64,000 nt of DNA from Candidatus Woesearchaeota archaeon (GTDB lineage: Archaea > Nanobdellota > Nanobdellia > Woesearchaeales > UBA12501), in contig JAUSFM010000015.1 in NCBI GenBank assembly GCA_030651375.1, forward strand, positions 124,001 to 188,000. The letters are read 5' to 3'. The notes below the pieces were generated by a model that saw nothing but the letters and a program-made list of their open reading frames with translations, made no database searches and had not been told where the DNA came from. A program made the translations under genes and the position numbers. Shown here in pieces: positions 14,343 to 60,236 of this stretch. Each line of letters opens with the position of its first letter. Position 1 is the stretch's first letter.

Positions 14343-14954
14343 ATGGTAGCACAGGAGTCCACGTTTCGAGGCATTATCAAGTTCTTTGGCGAGTTGGGCA
14401 TCTATGATGTCATCCTGCCGTTTCTGCTCGTGTTTACGATTGTATTTGCGGTGCTGGAAAAAACAAAGCTCTTCGGCACGGAAAAAGTAGGGGATAGGGA
14501 ATATCCGAAAAAAAATCTCAACTCAATGGTTGCGTTTGTTGCCGCGTTTTTGGTGGTTGCCTCGACCCGCTTGGTCGCAGCGATTAACGAATCGGTTGCC
14601 AACGTCGTGCTCCTCCTCTTGCTGTCGATTTGTTTCCTTCTCCTTATTGGTTCGTTCTACAAGGAAGGCGAGCCTATGAGCCTTGAGGGCAAGTGGCGCA
14701 GCTTGTTCATGATCATCATGTTCGTCGGCGTTGCGCTGATATTCCTCCAGTCTATCAAAATCGACAACCGTGGCATTGTGCAGTATGTGTATGATTATCT
14801 GCTGGTGAACTGGCAGTCCAACTTCACGGCATCGGTTATTTTCATCATCTTTATTGTTGGCTTTATTATCTGGGTCACTGCGTCGCAAGGGCCGCCTCCC
14901 ACAACAGGTTCAGGGGGAGGAAGCGGAAGCTCGAGCAGCAGCCATCATCATTAA
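14343..14954 (+). CDS. Multi-pass membrane protein, trio member 1
   Basis: A 203-residue membrane protein with about five hydrophobic segments and a Gly/Ser/His-rich C-terminal tail (residues ~190-203). The N-terminal part contains LPFLLVFTIVFAVLEKTKLFG, and very similar segments are in the two genes that follow, so the three are paralogues. A soluble loop (GTEKVGDREYPKK) follows the motif. ATG 14343 is chosen by TATA spacing. No known family recognised; it does not look like a transporter or pilin. The divergent neighbour is translin. Confidence 0.75.
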   Translation: MVAQESTFRGIIKFFGELGIYDVILPFLLVFTIVFAVLEKTKLFGTEKVGDREYPKKNLNSMVAFVAAFLVVASTRLVAAINESVANVVLLLLLSICFLLLIGSFYKEGEPMSLEGKWRSLFMIIMFVGVALIFLQSIKIDNRGIVQYVYDYLLVNWQSNFTASVIFIIFIVGFIIWVTASQGPPPTTGSGGGSGSSSSSHHH

Positions 14955-15014
14955 TCGAAAATTTTATATAGGGCACTCCCCTAAAAATCGTCAATAGAAA
15001 AAGAGTTGATACCT

Positions 15015-15608
15015 ATGCTGTATGGACCGAGCGGCGGAACATTCTTTGAGCGTGGCGTGCTCGCACTGGAACAATTAGGCATCAGCGATGTGCTTCTCCC
15101 TTTTATTCTGATTTTCACTATTGTTTTTGCGATTGCGCACCGGAGCAAGATGTTCGGCGAGAACCGAAAGAATATCGAAGTTATCATCTCATTGGTCATG
15201 GCGTTTTCAGTCATTATCCCGCATGTTACGGGCGATTACCCCGGCCAATGGGACGTGGTGAACATTATTAATTCGGCTCTGCCAAATGTGTCGCTGGTTA
15301 TTGTCTTGATCCTTATGGCATTGCTCCTTATTGGGCTCACCGGCCATCATGTAACACTGACCGGCAGCAGCACGAGCGGCCTGATTGTTCTTGTTGCATT
15401 CATTGTGGTCGGCTATATTTTCGGCGCTGCGGCGAATTTGTGGAGTATCAACGACAAACTCTCATTCCTCAACAATCCTGACACACAGGCACTGGTCGTT
15501 GTCGTTCTTGTCTTCGGCATGATTGTGTACTTTATCACGAAGGAAGACAAAGTGCAGGGCGAAAAATGGTTGGAACAGATTGGAAAGCATTTCACAAAAT
15601 CCCGCTAA
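15015..15608 (+). CDS. Multi-pass membrane protein, trio member 2
   Basis: A 197-residue membrane protein with the paralogue motif LPFILIFTIVFAIAHRSKMFG near residues 30-50, then five or so hydrophobic stretches and a charged C-terminal helix (KEDKVQGEKWLEQIGKHF) that should be cytoplasmic. A TATA-like tttatata at about 14964 gives it its own promoter. ATG 15015 is preferred over TTG 15006. Function unknown. Confidence 0.75.
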   Translation: MLYGPSGGTFFERGVLALEQLGISDVLLPFILIFTIVFAIAHRSKMFGENRKNIEVIISLVMAFSVIIPHVTGDYPGQWDVVNIINSALPNVSLVIVLILMALLLIGLTGHHVTLTGSSTSGLIVLVAFIVVGYIFGAAANLWSINDKLSFLNNPDTQALVVVVLVFGMIVYFITKEDKVQGEKWLEQIGKHFTKSR

Positions 15609-15618
15609 GAACTAAGCC

Positions 15619-16224
15619 ATGGTTACCCTCCTTGACGCCGGACTGTTAAGTACGCTTGCGCCAATTCTCTCTCTGTTGTTTGTCATGGCTGTTGTCTTTG
15701 GCGTGTTGAGCATGACCAAGCTCTTCGGCGACAACAAAGGAATTCATATTCTTATTGCAGTCATTCTCGGCTTGCTTGTGCTCCTCGTGCCGAATGTCAA
15801 TAACCTTATCATGACGATGATGCCGTGGTACACCTTTCTGTTCATTTTCATTGTGTTTATGCTGCTTATCTACAAAATTTTTGGCGCAACTGATGCAGAC
15901 ATTGTCGGTGTGCTGCGTGGGGATAGAACCATTGGTTGGCTTATCGTTATCATCTGCTTGATTATCGCCGGCGGTGCCATGGCTAGTGTGTATGGCCAGC
16001 AGTTGCTTCCATTGACAACGGGACCGGCGGTTGAAGGTGCACAAGGGACTGGAACAGGAACGGTGTATGCGGGAGGCACCACCAGTGGCGCAGCATCAAG
16101 CGCAACAGGAACGTACAGCAACAATCTTGCTGCGGCGTTTTTCCACCCAAAAATTCTCGGCTTTGGCCTGATTATGCTCATTGCAGTATTCGCCATGGCA
16201 GTTATGTCAATGGAACCACGATAA
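15619..16224 (+). CDS. Multi-pass membrane protein, trio member 3
   Basis: A 201-residue membrane protein 10 bp after member 2, so probably co-transcribed. It repeats the N-terminal pattern (LSLLFVMAVVFGVLSMTKLFG), has four or five hydrophobic segments, and a Thr/Gly/Ala-rich extracytoplasmic loop (about residues 135-170) before the final hydrophobic helix. The shared motif but divergent tails suggest hetero-oligomer subunits. Function unknown. Confidence 0.75.
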   Translation: MVTLLDAGLLSTLAPILSLLFVMAVVFGVLSMTKLFGDNKGIHILIAVILGLLVLLVPNVNNLIMTMMPWYTFLFIFIVFMLLIYKIFGATDADIVGVLRGDRTIGWLIVIICLIIAGGAMASVYGQQLLPLTTGPAVEGAQGTGTGTVYAGGTTSGAASSATGTYSNNLAAAFFHPKILGFGLIMLIAVFAMAVMSMEPR

Positions 16225-16245: not shown

Positions 16246-17259
16246 TTATACATTCGCCCGCTGTGCAATCGCGCGGTAGGTAAATTGGATAGCTTCGGCG
16301 TATCTGACTGATTCCTTAATCATTGGCATCCTCCCTTTTTTCTCGCGCACCCATCCCATGCCTGCGTTGTAGCCAATGAGCGCAGCAGCAACATAGCCGT
16401 TGCATTCCTTCAGATTTCCCGCCATGTACACTGCCATAGCAGGAATTGGTTTCCGGTAACCAAACCGTTCGTCGAATCCTTCTAAAAATCGGCGGTCTTT
16501 TTCATCGAAAATATCCCTTCCTTTTACATTTGCCGCGAGAAAACGGCGGTAATTATTTAATGCTGATTGCTGTTGCTCTGACATCTCCTTGAGGTCAAGA
16601 TAATTTTCTGGCACATCTTCAATATCCATAATGACACGCTGGGCGCGTGCTCGGGCTGCGCCGATTTTTAAAAATCGCTCATAGGCATCAGCGTGTTCAG
16701 GAAGTTTGCATCCCTCCCTATTTTGCTTTCCTGCGCACTGCATGCCATACTCTTTCGCCGACGGCTTGATGAACTGCGCAACGCCTGCAGCGGCAGCAGA
16801 AGAAATCGCAAATTCGTTGAACCGTGATTCCTCATACATCTGCGCAATAAGTACCAGTGGATCGACCGGAAAAATAGGTGCCGCTTCCTGTACTCCTTTC
16901 ATTGTCCAATGCAGAATCCAATGGATTCGTTTTTCAATATCAACATCGTTCACTTTTCTGCTTCCCCAAAATGGCTTGTCAGCGTAGCGGTCGTGCAGAA
17001 AGTCGAGTGTTGCTCGCTCAATTCGCTGTCGATATTCACTCGATGTCGGTGGATGATAATCAGCTGTAATAAAAACCGGCGGGCTTTCGGGAATGTGGAA
17101 TCGGGGAGCAGGCTTTGGCGCTGGAGGTTTTGGCTGGTGCAACTGTTTTTTCAGCGCTGCTTCTGCATCCGAAACAAGAACGGTTTCAATCATTGACAGG
17201 CCAAACGCCGTGGTGCCGACTATTCGACATGCATGGCTGAGGAAATCTCTGCGGTCCAT
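16246..17259 (-). CDS. Tat-exported lytic transglycosylase (SLT domain)
   Basis: Lytic transglycosylase-like enzyme that in bacteria cleaves peptidoglycan glycan strands. The N-terminus has a twin-arginine motif (DRRDFLSH), a hydrophobic stretch and an AEAA cleavage-like site, so export by the Tat pathway is likely. A Pro-rich linker (residues ~40-60) precedes the catalytic domain. The SLT core has YEESRFN with the catalytic Glu at about residue 140, followed by ISSAAAAGVAQFIKPSAKEYG, and near the end AALIGYNAGMGWV. Length 337. SD-like aaagggg precedes the ATG. Archaea have no murein, so the substrate would be bacterial wall or another polymer. Confidence 0.9.
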   Translation of the reverse strand: MDRRDFLSHACRIVGTTAFGLSMIETVLVSDAEAALKKQLHQPKPPAPKPAPRFHIPESPPVFITADYHPPTSSEYRQRIERATLDFLHDRYADKPFWGSRKVNDVDIEKRIHWILHWTMKGVQEAAPIFPVDPLVLIAQMYEESRFNEFAISSAAAAGVAQFIKPSAKEYGMQCAGKQNREGCKLPEHADAYERFLKIGAARARAQRVIMDIEDVPENYLDLKEMSEQQQSALNNYRRFLAANVKGRDIFDEKDRRFLEGFDERFGYRKPIPAMAVYMAGNLKECNGYVAAALIGYNAGMGWVREKKGRMPMIKESVRYAEAIQFTYRAIAQRANV

Positions 17260-17402
17260 CCCCTTTGGAATGCGTGTGCTGATTAAAATGCTCGTTGTAG
17301 CGGGATGAACAGCATTGTCTCGACTTTTAAACTTTTTTTATCGAAAATTAACGTATGATACAACAAATCAGTGAGATAAGGTGGGGCGTTTTTCTCTTTT
17401 TT

Positions 17403-17462
17403 CCCCCTTTTTCCACTCGAAACGGGCAATTTCCAGTCGAGCGATTTTATTTCTGGTGGAGA
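17403..17462. other. Origin-recognition-box-like repeats
   Basis: Between two genes. On the minus strand, 17403-17424 reads CGTTTCGAGTGGAAA followed by AAGGGGG, close to the archaeal ORB (TTCCAGTGGAAA plus a G-run). Two weaker copies on the plus strand are TTTCCAGTCGAG (17430-17441) and TTTCTGGTGGAGA (17450-17462). ORBs bind Orc1/Cdc6; the gene for that initiator is at 30.7 kb. A candidate origin or initiator-binding site, not proven. Confidence 0.4.
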
Positions 17463-17480
17463 ATGAAAAATTTTCGCGCC

Positions 17481-17498
17481 GCGCGCCTTACGGCGCGC
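17481..17498 (-). terminator. Hairpin terminator of the 543-residue gene
   Basis: GCGCGCC / ttac / GGCGCGC stem-loop with the stop codon in the loop. On the minus strand it is followed within about 10 nt by a T-run (AAAATTTTT), resembling an intrinsic terminator. Confidence 0.5.
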
Positions 17499-19119
17499 TG
17501 ATTGACGCTACCCCGCGCGCGGCACAACTATCGTACAGATAGCTATCGGCATCCAGGCTGAAGTCGTCATCGACGTCGTTGCAACCCAGCCACGCGGCAC
17601 GAGTTTCTTTTTCTGACGAAACCCAGACGCGTGCTGTTTTGCCGAAGTATTGGGCAATAGGAATGAGCTCTAGGGGGTTTTGCAGTCCGGTGAAGTCTTG
17701 CAGAAATCCAAGCATGTTCGGTTTTTTGCATGCTTCTTCCAGTGTGCAATGTTCAAATCCTTTTTTGTCGAATGGTTTTGAATTTCGTTGATATTCTTGA
17801 TTTATTTGTGCAGTGTCGCCGTGTTCGGGGAAGTCCTCATCTTTAGGATAATGAATAACTTGTTTTCCTTTCCAATCTACAACCGTGTTTTGCGCGTGCC
17901 AGCCGTATCCTGCGCCATGGTCTTTGTATTGGTCGAGGATTTGTTTTGCGTGCGCGTCGAGTGTTGTGTAGGTTCCATCTTCCTCTCTACGTACTGCAGC
18001 ATGATACAGTGCAACAAGAATGTTACAACTCAATGCCATGCTGGGCAAGAACTGGTCGCGCTCTGTTTTAAAATGCAGAATAGCCTGATACGGTGTAAAC
18101 TGTTGGTGAGCGTTATTTTGCCGCCGAACAACATCCGACTGAACACGAAGCTCCGCGTATTGTTCAAACACGAGGCCGTCACTGCCGACACACTGAACAT
18201 TTCGCAAAACATATGGTTGGGTGTAGCCGCGTGCCTGATTAGGTGTTTGCCGTACTGTTTCACCACGTTCGGCAGCGTCAACAGCGGCGCCGATGTCGTC
18301 TGCATTGACGCTTGTTTGTGTGCGTGCTGGTCGAGATGATTGTGTGGTTTGATGTACGACCGGTGTTGGTGCTGGCTGTGTTGTGCGTGTTTTTTCTTTT
18401 TCAAGATTGCGTCCGGTGAGATATTCAAATACGCCAATGTCCACACCATCAAGTTTCAGTTCTGTTTCGAGTGCTTCGCCGTGTTTTTTGTCCCAGCCGC
18501 GGCGCTTGCTTGCTGCAGTTGCAGCGAGTTGGACAAGGAGTTCAGGATCTTCGTGAATGGGCATTGCGGCATATAGTTCTCGCCAGATGCCACGGATGAC
18601 TTTGAAAAAAGGATCGTCAGAAGCAGTGGCCATTCTTTTTCTGAAGTGTGCGCGTTGGATGTCATTATAATCAGGGTTGCTGCCGAGGAAGTGAACCATA
18701 CCGGTGTATGCTTCGTCTATTTTACCGTCGAGCGCGAGTATTTGCCAGTCGGCCATGTGTTTTCTGGCATAGTACCATTCCCAACCATCTTTTCCCTGTT
18801 TTTCTCTGGTGCCTGAAATATGCTCTTGGCGGGTGCTCTTGTTCAATCCAACTGCCGGACTCGTAACTCCTGCGCGCAAGTCGGTTATATCTGTTCCGGT
18901 GAGCTGAAGATACCGTTCGACAACCCGTTCAATAACTCTGCCATCAGTTCCATTAATTTTATCACCAAGAACATCATCAAAGGTGGCAGAAACATCCCAC
19001 AACTTGCAGCGCAAATCACGAACAGACTGCTCTGCAGTCTGTGCCAAATACGTCACATCATTCCAAAACGGTGTTCTCGTCACATGCCGTGCCGCTTCCA
19101 CCATACGAAGGAGATCCAT
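17488..19119 (-). CDS. Unknown 543-residue protein
   Basis: No family recognised. There is no signal peptide or transmembrane helix. The N-terminal ~230 residues look alpha-helical and charged, residues ~245-300 are a Thr/Gln/Pro-rich linker, and the C-terminal ~240 residues form a mixed-charge domain with Trp and His (KDHGAGYGWHAQNTVVDWKG). A TATA box (about 19142-19150) centred 27 bp upstream favours ATG 19119 over the TTG at 19131. The stop is inside a hairpin terminator. Its layout of two globular parts joined by a linker is compatible with an enzyme or effector, but nothing more can be said. Confidence 0.65.
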   Translation of the reverse strand: MDLLRMVEAARHVTRTPFWNDVTYLAQTAEQSVRDLRCKLWDVSATFDDVLGDKINGTDGRVIERVVERYLQLTGTDITDLRAGVTSPAVGLNKSTRQEHISGTREKQGKDGWEWYYARKHMADWQILALDGKIDEAYTGMVHFLGSNPDYNDIQRAHFRKRMATASDDPFFKVIRGIWRELYAAMPIHEDPELLVQLAATAASKRRGWDKKHGEALETELKLDGVDIGVFEYLTGRNLEKEKTRTTQPAPTPVVHQTTQSSRPARTQTSVNADDIGAAVDAAERGETVRQTPNQARGYTQPYVLRNVQCVGSDGLVFEQYAELRVQSDVVRRQNNAHQQFTPYQAILHFKTERDQFLPSMALSCNILVALYHAAVRREEDGTYTTLDAHAKQILDQYKDHGAGYGWHAQNTVVDWKGKQVIHYPKDEDFPEHGDTAQINQEYQRNSKPFDKKGFEHCTLEEACKKPNMLGFLQDFTGLQNPLELIPIAQYFGKTARVWVSSEKETRAAWLGCNDVDDDFSLDADSYLYDSCAARGVASISAP

Positions 19120-57252: not shown

Positions 57253-57984
57253 GTGGCACGAAAAAAGAAGGACAAAAAGGAAAAAGAGCAGGCAGTGCCC
57301 GAAACAACTGAAGCGCCGGCAGAGCCGCTTCTGGGCGCACAGCCGGGCATGTTTGGTTTTCTCAAAGGATTCTTCAACCGGTTCCTCAACGACCTCTTCG
57401 GCGGCCAGCGGCAGGTAAAACTCGGACTCTACGGCCCGCCAAACGGCGGCAAAACAACCATCGCCAACAGAATTTGCACTGACTGGCTGGGCGAAGAAAT
57501 GGGCAGTGTTTCTCCCATTCCCCACGAGACGCGGGAAATACAGTCCAAAGACAAAATTACCATCAAAAAAGGAAAAAAACAGCTCTCATTCAGCTTGGTT
57601 GACACGCCGGGCATTGCGACGAAAATCGATTATGAAGAATTTATCCGCAGCGGGCTCGCGCCGAGCGTCGCGAAAAAACGGGCAAAGGAAGCAACCAAAG
57701 GAGTTATCGATTCCATCAAGTGGCTCGACGACATGGACTGCGTTATCGTCGTGCTCGACGCCACCAAAGACCCGTATTCACAAGTGAACATCACCATCAT
57801 CGGCAATCTTGCTGCACGAGATATTCCCGTGCTGCTCGTAGCAAACAAGATTGATTTGCGCAAGGCAGACGAGAAAAAAATATCAGCAGCGTTTCCCCAA
57901 TACGACATTGTGCCCATGAGCGCGAAAAAGGGCACGAACATCGAAGGGCTGTATGAAGCGCTCTTCAAGCTCGCATCAAAGTAA
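57253..57984 (+). CDS. Era/Der-like small GTPase
   Basis: A 243-residue GTPase. Motifs: Walker A YGPPNGGKTTIANR, G3 VDTPG, and G4 NKID. An N-terminal basic and Ala-rich stretch (residues 1-30) precedes a helical segment. The GTG start is set by a TATA-like box at 57207-57215. First gene of an archaeal cluster with DUF2073-like and Zn-ribbon proteins; the partners suggest a ribosome- or RNA-related task. Confidence 0.88.
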   Translation: MARKKKDKKEKEQAVPETTEAPAEPLLGAQPGMFGFLKGFFNRFLNDLFGGQRQVKLGLYGPPNGGKTTIANRICTDWLGEEMGSVSPIPHETREIQSKDKITIKKGKKQLSFSLVDTPGIATKIDYEEFIRSGLAPSVAKKRAKEATKGVIDSIKWLDDMDCVIVVLDATKDPYSQVNITIIGNLAARDIPVLLVANKIDLRKADEKKISAAFPQYDIVPMSAKKGTNIEGLYEALFKLASK

Positions 57985-58088
57985 CACAACGTACCAACAA
58001 AACTAACAACGAAAAATCCATATTCAAAAAACTATTTAAAGAAATAGAGGTTAGACACACCAGAACAGAGTAAGAAAAGAGGTTTCAT

Positions 58089-58532
58089 ATGGCCTTAACG
58101 CTCCAATTCGTGCCACACAACCAGATTGAGAATCTGAGCTCGCTCGGCAGAATCAGGAAACTCCTTAACATTGCCAAGCAGGATCGTATTGTGCTCCTCG
58201 AAGGTCGGCTCACCAAGGAAGAGGAAGCCGAACTCATCAAGATAACCATGGAGGAAATCAATGCTGAATTCAAGGGCATTGAGCTGGCAATTATTTACCC
58301 CAACGAAAACCTTCCTGATGACCTGCTTCAGAAATTAAAGTACACATTCTTATGGGCGCTCATGGGCAATCGGCTCGGCCTTACGATCATCGGACCGGCA
58401 ACCATAGTCAAGGAAATCAAGCGCGACCCAAACAAGATACAGCTCTTCACTCAGCTCGGCAAGCGAAAAGTAAAGAAACTCAAACTGCGCAGCGACCGAC
58501 CAACTGCGCGAAAACAAAAGCGGAGAAGGTGA
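58089..58532 (+). CDS. DUF2073-like archaeal protein
   Basis: A 147-residue protein with a mixed fold followed by a highly basic tail (KVKKLKLRSDRPTARKQKRRR) likely to bind RNA. Resembles the archaeal DUF2073 family, usually next to an Era-like GTPase and a Zn-ribbon protein as here. SD-like gaggttt before ATG; TATA-like tatttaaa about 56 bp upstream. Function unknown. Confidence 0.75.
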   Translation: MALTLQFVPHNQIENLSSLGRIRKLLNIAKQDRIVLLEGRLTKEEEAELIKITMEEINAEFKGIELAIIYPNENLPDDLLQKLKYTFLWALMGNRLGLTIIGPATIVKEIKRDPNKIQLFTQLGKRKVKKLKLRSDRPTARKQKRRR

Positions 58533-58538
58533 TAAGCA

Positions 58539-58931
58539 ATGCCGCACCAATGCGTCCGCTGCAACCAGTTTTATGAAGACGGTTCGAATGAAATAATCAA
58601 GGGCTGCTCATGCGGCGCGAAACTCTTCTTTTTCATCAAAAAAGAAAAAATGGAAAAACTGCGCGCGGTGCAGGAACAGTTTGTTGCACTGCCTGAAGCG
58701 GAAAAGAAACAAATTGAAAAAGACGTTTTTTCCGTCATGGGCGTTGAGGAAGAGGAGCAGGACGAGCCGGTTATTCTTGACATTGAATCCATCCGCGTGG
58801 TCAAGCCCGGAAAATTCGAGCTCGATCTCGTCAACCTCTTCAACAAGGAAAATCCCATCATCTTCAAGCTTGGGGAGGGCAAGTACATGATTGACCTGCC
58901 GGAAACCTTCCGCCGGCGGCGGACGTTATGA
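58539..58931 (+). CDS. Zn-ribbon protein of the GTPase cluster
   Basis: A 130-residue protein with an N-terminal Zn ribbon (CVRCNQFY...GCSCG) and a mixed C-terminal region. It lies 6 bp after the DUF2073-like gene and overlaps the peroxiredoxin start by 4 bp (ATGA). Similar to DUF2072-type Zn-ribbon proteins found with the same archaeal GTPase. Function unknown. Confidence 0.78.
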   Translation: MPHQCVRCNQFYEDGSNEIIKGCSCGAKLFFFIKKEKMEKLRAVQEQFVALPEAEKKQIEKDVFSVMGVEEEEQDEPVILDIESIRVVKPGKFELDLVNLFNKENPIIFKLGEGKYMIDLPETFRRRRTL

Positions 58932-59470: not shown

Positions 59471-59623
59471 TTAATGGTTTTTAAGCCAGATAAGGTGTAT
59501 GAACACTCCGAGTCCCAAAATCACCCAAGCACCCTGCATCCCAGCTAACACTCCTAGTGCGCCGATCAAGCAAAGTATACTCGCCGGATTCTTCGCAACA
59601 ATTAAAATTTTGTTTAGGTCCAT
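59471..59623 (-). CDS. 50-residue two-helix membrane protein
   Basis: MDLNKILIVAKNPASILCLIG... with two hydrophobic stretches (about 14-27 and 31-44) and a short basic tail ending WLKNH. The SD AAAGGAGG is ten nucleotides before the ATG. It sits behind a ~90-nt leader that begins with a predicted pseudoknot, starting at a TATA box at 59738-59746. Too small for family assignment; perhaps a stress or transport accessory protein. It shares promoter elements with the 42-residue gene at 10.7 kb. Confidence 0.78.
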   Translation of the reverse strand: MDLNKILIVAKNPASILCLIGALGVLAGMQGAWVILGLGVFIHLIWLKNH

Positions 59624-59662
59624 GCAAACATTTCCTCCTTTACATTTTTAATTTTTTGGAGA

Positions 59663-59712
59663 AATCAGAAAACGCGCCAAAAGAGGACTGCATTTCTGAT
59701 TCATCCTCTTTT
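59663..59712 (-). promoter_or_regulatory. Predicted H-type pseudoknot in the 5' leader
   Basis: Two interleaved perfect inverted repeats: AATCAGAAA (59663-59671) with TTTCTGATT (59693-59701), and AAAAGAGGA (59679-59687) with TCCTCTTTT (59704-59712). Their order (A, B, A', B') makes a pseudoknot of two 9-bp stems. The transcript from the TATA box should begin about 59715, so the structure forms at its 5' end. A CU-rich segment just after it can also pair with the SD region GGAGGAAA, so ligand- or temperature-controlled translation is possible. Not matched to a known riboswitch. Confidence 0.5.
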
Positions 59713-59737
59713 AACAAAGACACCATTCATAGACGTG

Positions 59738-59746
59738 TATAAAAAT
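59738..59746 (-). promoter_or_regulatory. TATA box of the 50-residue membrane protein gene
   Basis: ATTTTTATA on the minus strand within ACAACATTTTTATA, the same 14-mer as at 10.9 kb. Confidence 0.5.
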
Positions 59747-59900
59747 GTTGTGGTGGAAACTATAGTTTTGAGTAAACACGTTTTAGGATTCGCGAGTAAC
59801 AAAAACAAGAAAAAAATAATCAGTTCAACTGTCTTTTTATCATCTTGTTTTAACGAATTCACCAAAAAAAGTATAAAGAGTAATTAATTTTCTAACGCCC

Positions 59901-60236
59901 ATGACACCCCAATTCGCCTTCATCAAAACCTTCGGCGACTACCCCTTGATTCGCGTACTTGATTTCTTGATATATTCGCGCGACTTTGATTACCCGCTCA
60001 CGGAAATTGCGAAAAATGCTGGTGTCAATTTTCAAACCCTAAAAAAAATATGGCCGCAACTTGAGGAAAATAAGATAATCATTAAAACACGAACACTTGC
60101 CGGCGCAACCTTGTACAAAATAAACATGGCCAACCCGGTTGTTAAGAAAATAATTGAGCTGAACAATTTTCTCTGCTGGAAACAGGTTGAAGAACAGAAA
60201 GAAGATGAACCACTACTGGAACCGGCGATTGTGTGA
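59901..60236 (+). CDS. Winged-helix DNA-binding protein
   Basis: An 111-residue protein with a winged-helix core (TEIAKNAGVNFQTLKKIWPQLEENKIIIKT) and a basic/acidic tail. ArsR/MarR-like size. TATA-like aagtataaa 27 bp upstream. Convergent with ychF, with no gap. Probably a small transcription regulator; target unknown. Confidence 0.75.
   Translation: MTPQFAFIKTFGDYPLIRVLDFLIYSRDFDYPLTEIAKNAGVNFQTLKKIWPQLEENKIIIKTRTLAGATLYKINMANPVVKKIIELNNFLCWKQVEEQKEDEPLLEPAIV

Follow-up and report, generated by a model that had tools for sequence, protein, structure and literature searches.

A predicted pseudoknotted 5′ leader upstream of a 50-residue hydrophobic protein in a Woesearchaeota archaeon

On the minus strand of the window (the whole 64-kb stretch of DNA that was analysed), a promoter motif, two interleaved inverted repeats, a Shine-Dalgarno (SD) sequence and a short open reading frame (ORF) follow one another. 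The features, in order of coordinates, are:

59471..59623, minus: 50-aa hydrophobic two-helix protein with the motif AKNPxxIL...LGVxxHxxWL; homologues found by profile search
59633..59641, minus: SD region AAAGGAGGA
59658..59664, minus: second anti-SD, UUUCUCC; its UCC can instead pair upstream with GGA of S1 (extended S2 hairpin)
59663..59671, minus: S2 3′ arm (S2′), TTTCTGATT
59679..59687, minus: S1 3′ arm (S1′), TCCTCTTTT; doubles as anti-SD for 59641-59633
59693..59701, minus: S2 5′ arm, AATCAGAAA; sits inside the S1 loop
59704..59712, minus: S1 5′ arm, AAAAGAGGA; an SD-like sequence, with a helix that G-U pairs can extend
59736..59751, minus: archaeal BRE/TATA promoter, ACAACATTTTTATACA; predicted transcription start site (TSS) 59715

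Divergent from this gene, positions 59901-60236 of the window encode a winged-helix-like protein, whose family has as many as six copies in a single genome among related archaea; at loci L006 and L008, a gene of this family has as its neighbour a conserved small protein carrying the motif KPASYGL. At 57253-58931, also near the studied locus, a GTPase gene stands beside genes of the OapB and OapC families (origin-associated proteins).

The promoter motif ACAACATTTTTATACA (59751-59736) is the top site on both strands over the 480 nt around the start codon, as scanned with a matrix trained on 399 upstream regions without SD from the same genome; the TATA-to-start spacing was likewise calibrated on this genome. 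The predicted TSS, 59715, is identical to that proposed from the TATA box in an earlier sequence-only reading of this DNA. It lies three bases 5′ of the first arm of S1, which places the beginning of the knot at about +4. At intergenic start codons of the genome, the TATA signal peaks at -30, indicating that the majority of genes are leaderless, and an SD-like motif is found upstream of 144 of the 895 long genes (16%). Since most mRNAs of this genome have no leader, one with structure from the very first bases and a strong SD after it is unusual.

The encoded product is predicted by AlphaFold to form helices at residues 13-26 and 32-49 (mean pLDDT 79). Hydropathy agrees with this assignment (GRAVY +1.24), in line with the short ORF with two hydrophobic helices described earlier. 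Searches against Pfam and PHROGs gave nothing convincing, and the protein has no Pfam family. Profile searches detected homologues in eight other archaeal genomes, sporadically distributed among Woesearchaeota-like and other DPANN archaea, and these homologues show the ORF to be real. Those within the same order are L026 (the same locus as L051, labelled Woesearchaeota), L004/L025, L027, L028 and L029; L056 and L057 come from other orders of the class, and L052 from a genome labelled Aenigmatarchaeota. The family products are 48-64 aa long, with GRAVY values of 0.9-1.5 and two hydrophobic segments in most members. Within the order, the gene is present in 7 of 353 genomes (its own included), with one copy each and one of them marginal; its frequency is ~1-2% of genomes, and further searches of the order and class added no convincing copies. 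Among nine other genomes of the same family no convincing copy was found, the marginal match in G008 (same family, E 9e-4) looking like chance, and no homologue turned up when phage, plasmid and viral-contig proteins were searched.

The 5′ part of the predicted RNA reads GUU-AAAAGAGGA-UG-AAUCAGAAA-UGCAG-UCCUCUUUU-GGCGCGU-UUUCUGAUU-UCUCC..., and the leader ends with ...AAAGGAGGA-AAUGUUUGC-AUG. S1 and S2 are perfect 9-bp inverted repeats that interleave between 59712 and 59663 (minus), with loops of 2, 5 and 7 nt between the successive arms S1, S2, S1′ and S2′. In terms of pairing potential, two crossing helices are therefore available in the predicted transcript 5′ of the SD, and the arms of the H-type pseudoknot claimed by the sequence-only reading are confirmed. 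It is the sole crossing pair in the window with both stems of at least 8 bp inside 60 nt; the expectation from 60 simulated windows is 0.07 pairs for stems of 8 bp and zero for stems of 9 bp. Genome-wide (1.3 Mb), S1/S2 ranks fifth by a crossing-helix score in which stem probability is weighed against span. About one score like it is expected by chance per 1.3 Mb, as estimated here from the score formula, and for this reason the repeat taken alone is suggestive and of interest, not proof. None of the other high-scoring crossing repeats inspected in the genome precedes a similar small protein. The top-scoring ones, GGAAAAATAG / TTTTAATTCG (L096:16427-16505, G000:C3), are intergenic and lie ~180 nt 5′ of a 471-aa minus-strand ORF that is unrelated to the small protein.

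Two segments of the leader can pair with the SD. UUUCUCC (59664-59658) pairs with GGAGGAAA (59638-59631) with one bulge, forming a local hairpin of ~-6 kcal/mol (-6.1); this interaction had been noticed before, and the stronger partner, S1′, had been overlooked. S1′ (UCCUCUUUU) pairs with the SD AAAGGAGGA over 9 positions, including one G-U, at -7.4 kcal/mol, and has two alternative partners, the 5′ arm of S1 or the SD. Consequently, the 5′ arm of S1 is a mimic of the SD, and the SD-open and SD-closed states are mutually exclusive. Within the leader, G-U pairs lengthen S1 to 13 bp (-16.9 kcal/mol), and the extended S2 hairpin, GGA-GAAUCAGAAA with UUUCUGAUUUC-UCC, reaches -20 kcal/mol and would compete with S1 once S2′ has been transcribed. 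All these values refer to individual helices or hairpins, pseudoknot energies being outside the computation. The RBS-leader duplex energy in the window is among the strongest 5% when compared with 384 control genes. Against gating, a nested-only fold of the leader leaves the RBS as accessible as that of average genes. The earlier suggestions of a promoter-led, SD-containing transcript and of possible SD sequestration are both supported.

In L027, SD occlusion involves 13 perfect pairs that run across the SD and reach the start codon (top 0.5% of controls). Direct anti-SD pairing was not seen in the leaders of L004, L052 and L056, which are unremarkable against the 384 genes in the RBS-leader duplex test; masking of the RBS is thus not a family rule. 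It is plausible in the window and in L027, and the 5′ knot is the more general property of the family; it could also influence how stable the mRNA is or how ribosomes land.

The leader DNA is not conserved: a search of 353 genomes of the order gave short chance matches only, and the arms of different members have no sequence in common. The leaders were compared by structure alone. Because they cannot be aligned, neither column-wise covariation nor a covariance model can be computed, but the condition under which the sequence-only reading would be refuted, a lack of compensatory changes in homologues, did not refute it: crossing stems persist in some leaders of the family although their letters are entirely different. 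In L004, both AAAAGGGAGA/TCTCCCTTTT and TAATTTCTA/TAGAAATTA are crossed by TTTTCAGTAATGCAA/TTGCATTACTGAAAA (15 bp). In the L052 leader, ATGGAGACCCT/AGGGTCTCCAT is crossed by CGTCCTTCCCG/CGGGAAGGACG, the 5′ arm of which lies inside the loop of the CCTGGAAAGCGTTG hairpin. L027:1278-1492 contains four long inverted repeats that cross each other, since their 3′ arms succeed one another in the order of their 5′ arms; the last repeat (16 nt, 94%) overlies the ribosome-binding site as far as the start codon. The L057 leader contains ATGGCC/GGCCAT crossed by CGGAAAA/TTTTCCG, shortly 3′ of the predicted TSS. The first arm lies ~0-31 nt from predicted sense TSSs in L052, L057, L027 and L004. Across the homologous leaders, arms reach 15 bp and loops ~100 nt, and in L004 and L052 the long, perfectly paired crossing helices stop 20-80 nt 5′ of the start codon. 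L052:2240-2480 additionally has predicted sense TSSs at -206 and -41 and an antisense TSS at -94, relative to the start codon; the shorter of the two sense transcripts would bypass the knotted leader, and the antisense RNA would span its 5′ half.

The crossing helices were scored against 313 intergenic 220-nt upstream regions, taken from the window genome and from contigs belonging to seven of the genomes with homologues. The leaders of L004, L052 and L027 outscore all 313 controls, while controls score at least as high as the member in 4 of 313 cases for the window, 35 of 313 for L057 and 50 of 313 for L056; L026, L028 and L029 give no crossing-helix signal by the same score. The pseudoknot of L057 is visible and individually non-significant, and a plain, unscored crossing-repeat test that preceded the span-weighted score did not single it out. 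Four of the nine members (L026, L029, L028 and L056) are without a significant knot. L026 overlaps its upstream gene and L029 follows directly behind a short ORF; both are apparently in operons and hence seem to have no leader of their own. The top three of the 322 regions are family members, an outcome with a rank chance of ~1.5e-5 that is indicative only, since the span-weighted score was made after the pattern had been noticed in several members and the controls are not matched one-to-one. When all nine members are taken together, a plain rank test yields p = 0.01. Some control upstream regions, those of the L080 ORF at 10496 and the L090 ORFs at 14652-15686 and 17049-18794, match the family in the strength of their crossing repeats.

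The retention of crossing helices with different letters in other members would point to selection on the fold, and its recurrence in several distant homologues without common sequence suggests that the fold itself is conserved by evolution. Collectively, the leader is probably a functional RNA element, and its reading as a translational control element, which draws support from the homologous sequences, is a reasonable one. Positions 59471-59715 (minus) would then constitute a small monocistronic gene whose mRNA opens with a pseudoknotted 5′ leader, and this leader would gate the 50-residue two-helix membrane protein through competition between folds, with no small-molecule ligand. During transcription, the S1 hairpin would form first, and S2′ would then capture its loop. 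S1′ and UUUCUCC would serve as the anti-SD strands: held within the leader, they would leave the SD free, and once released they would cover it. Such logic would resemble that of a type I toxin mRNA, in which a tiny hydrophobic protein, a structured transcript and conditional translation are combined. The arms, the promoter motif, the SD, the ORF family and the over-representation of crossing helices in several leaders of the family can be read from the DNA; from these we infer folding in vivo, translation as the controlled step and harm caused by the protein in excess. A point against gating is that loop L1 has only 2 nt to span the 9-bp S2, which is sterically tight, and the specific mechanism, as the best explanation, is about evenly poised between right and wrong. 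The locus offers a testable RNA-control element that Rfam does not list, ahead of a gene whose protein family Pfam does not list either.

Accidental inverted repeats in AT-rich intergenic DNA, ahead of an ordinary small gene, would account for the chance expectation of about one equally good crossing pair per 1.3 Mb and for the four higher-scoring pairs elsewhere in the genome; however, the repeats stand exactly at the predicted TSS and still stronger crossing helices precede three homologous genes, which makes coincidence rather unlikely. The repeats might instead function at the DNA level, as operator sites bound by a regulator; the neighbouring, divergently encoded winged-helix protein, which is probably DNA-binding and belongs to a multi-copy family, is one candidate; one homologous locus, L091, also has a winged-helix gene upstream. 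Against this, the arms fall inside the predicted transcript, the arm and loop lengths in the homologues are far from operator geometry, and most loci have no divergent winged-helix gene. Other copies of the winged-helix family were checked for similar repeats and showed nothing consistent, and an operator function appears decidedly improbable. An RNA thermometer, the thermosensor also named in the sequence-only reading, in which the SD/anti-SD pairing melts with temperature and admits ribosomes, would suit the weak, AU-rich SD pairing (-6 to -7 kcal/mol). Thermometers require no conserved sequence, but they are usually simple hairpins at the RBS, and the long, perfectly paired helices in L004 and L052, distant from the start codon, would not melt at moderate temperature; this reading is improbable, if slightly less so than an operator.

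The main proposal of the sequence-only reading was a riboswitch, which would here be a new class responding to a metabolite or an ion. An H-type pseudoknot followed by an expression platform would fit it, and a sub-threshold alignment to the full preQ1-II model was obtained (20.1 bits, cut-off 47, E 0.24). This match is at chance level and the core is absent. A metabolite riboswitch requires a conserved ligand-binding core, whereas the homologues share neither core nor loop; retention of the fold while the sequence changes favours intrinsic control over sensing of a metabolite, and the proposal is very improbable, the least probable of those weighed here. The accompanying statement that no known RNA class is recognisable holds, as the leaders of the window and of five homologous loci gave no Rfam covariance-model match above the gathering score. 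A stronger version of fold-gated translation, by analogy, is a complete type I toxin-antitoxin locus, in which an antisense RNA against the leader would silence a toxic membrane peptide and the knot would keep the full-length mRNA inert. The small hydrophobic two-helix product, the structured leader with anti-SD pairing, the sporadic distribution (one copy adjoins a primase/helicase-like gene) and candidate antisense promoters in L052 (TSS -94) and L057 are consistent with it. However, the best antisense promoter-like sites of the window are weaker than the sense site and none starts a transcript within the leader, AT-rich DNA yields TATA-like sites by chance, and the promoter-matrix scan of the members did not reveal an antisense promoter as a consistent family feature. 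Type I loci have, moreover, been reported from bacterial phyla only (PMC12390103). A complete type I locus is unlikely, if less so than coincidence.

Among known systems, RNA thermometers share with the window the masking of an SD without sequence conservation and differ in using a simple RBS hairpin instead of long crossing helices from the 5′ end. The preQ1-II riboswitch (RF01054) likewise places an H-type pseudoknot just 5′ of the SD, and is set apart by the sub-threshold score, the lack of a conserved core in the window family and the different kind of gene. Type III ToxI is a pseudoknot RNA directly 5′ of a toxin-like gene on the same strand; unlike ToxI, the studied locus has no tandem repeats, its product is a membrane peptide rather than an RNase, and no terminator was found between leader and ORF. 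The closest working analogue is the type I toxin mRNA (hok, aapA), without membership being claimed. Type I toxin mRNAs encode short hydrophobic proteins, mask the SD with anti-SD sequences and pass through successive folds while being transcribed, and RBS occlusion of this kind is described as their hallmark (PMC6733600). The family matches a membrane protein of ~60 aa or less; an occluded RBS is strong in L027, possible in the window and absent in L004, L052 and L056, and for the antisense RNA there are TATA-like candidates in some members and none convincing in the window. If the protein is toxic, type I-like control would extend from bacteria to archaea. That the family is a patchy, broadly distributed archaeal group of tiny hydrophobic toxins under sequence-free, multiply crossing pseudoknot leaders is a doubtful proposition, a shade less likely than the complete type I locus; if true, it would give archaea their first type I-like toxin system under RNA control, and its order-preserving crossing helices would represent a new folding logic for mRNA silencing. 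A tiny hydrophobic membrane protein, a structured leader, competing folds and anti-SD pairing are common to hok/aapA and the window; the former rely on metastable hairpins and 5′-3′ pairing, whereas the window family is archaeal and would use an H-type or multiply crossing pseudoknot.
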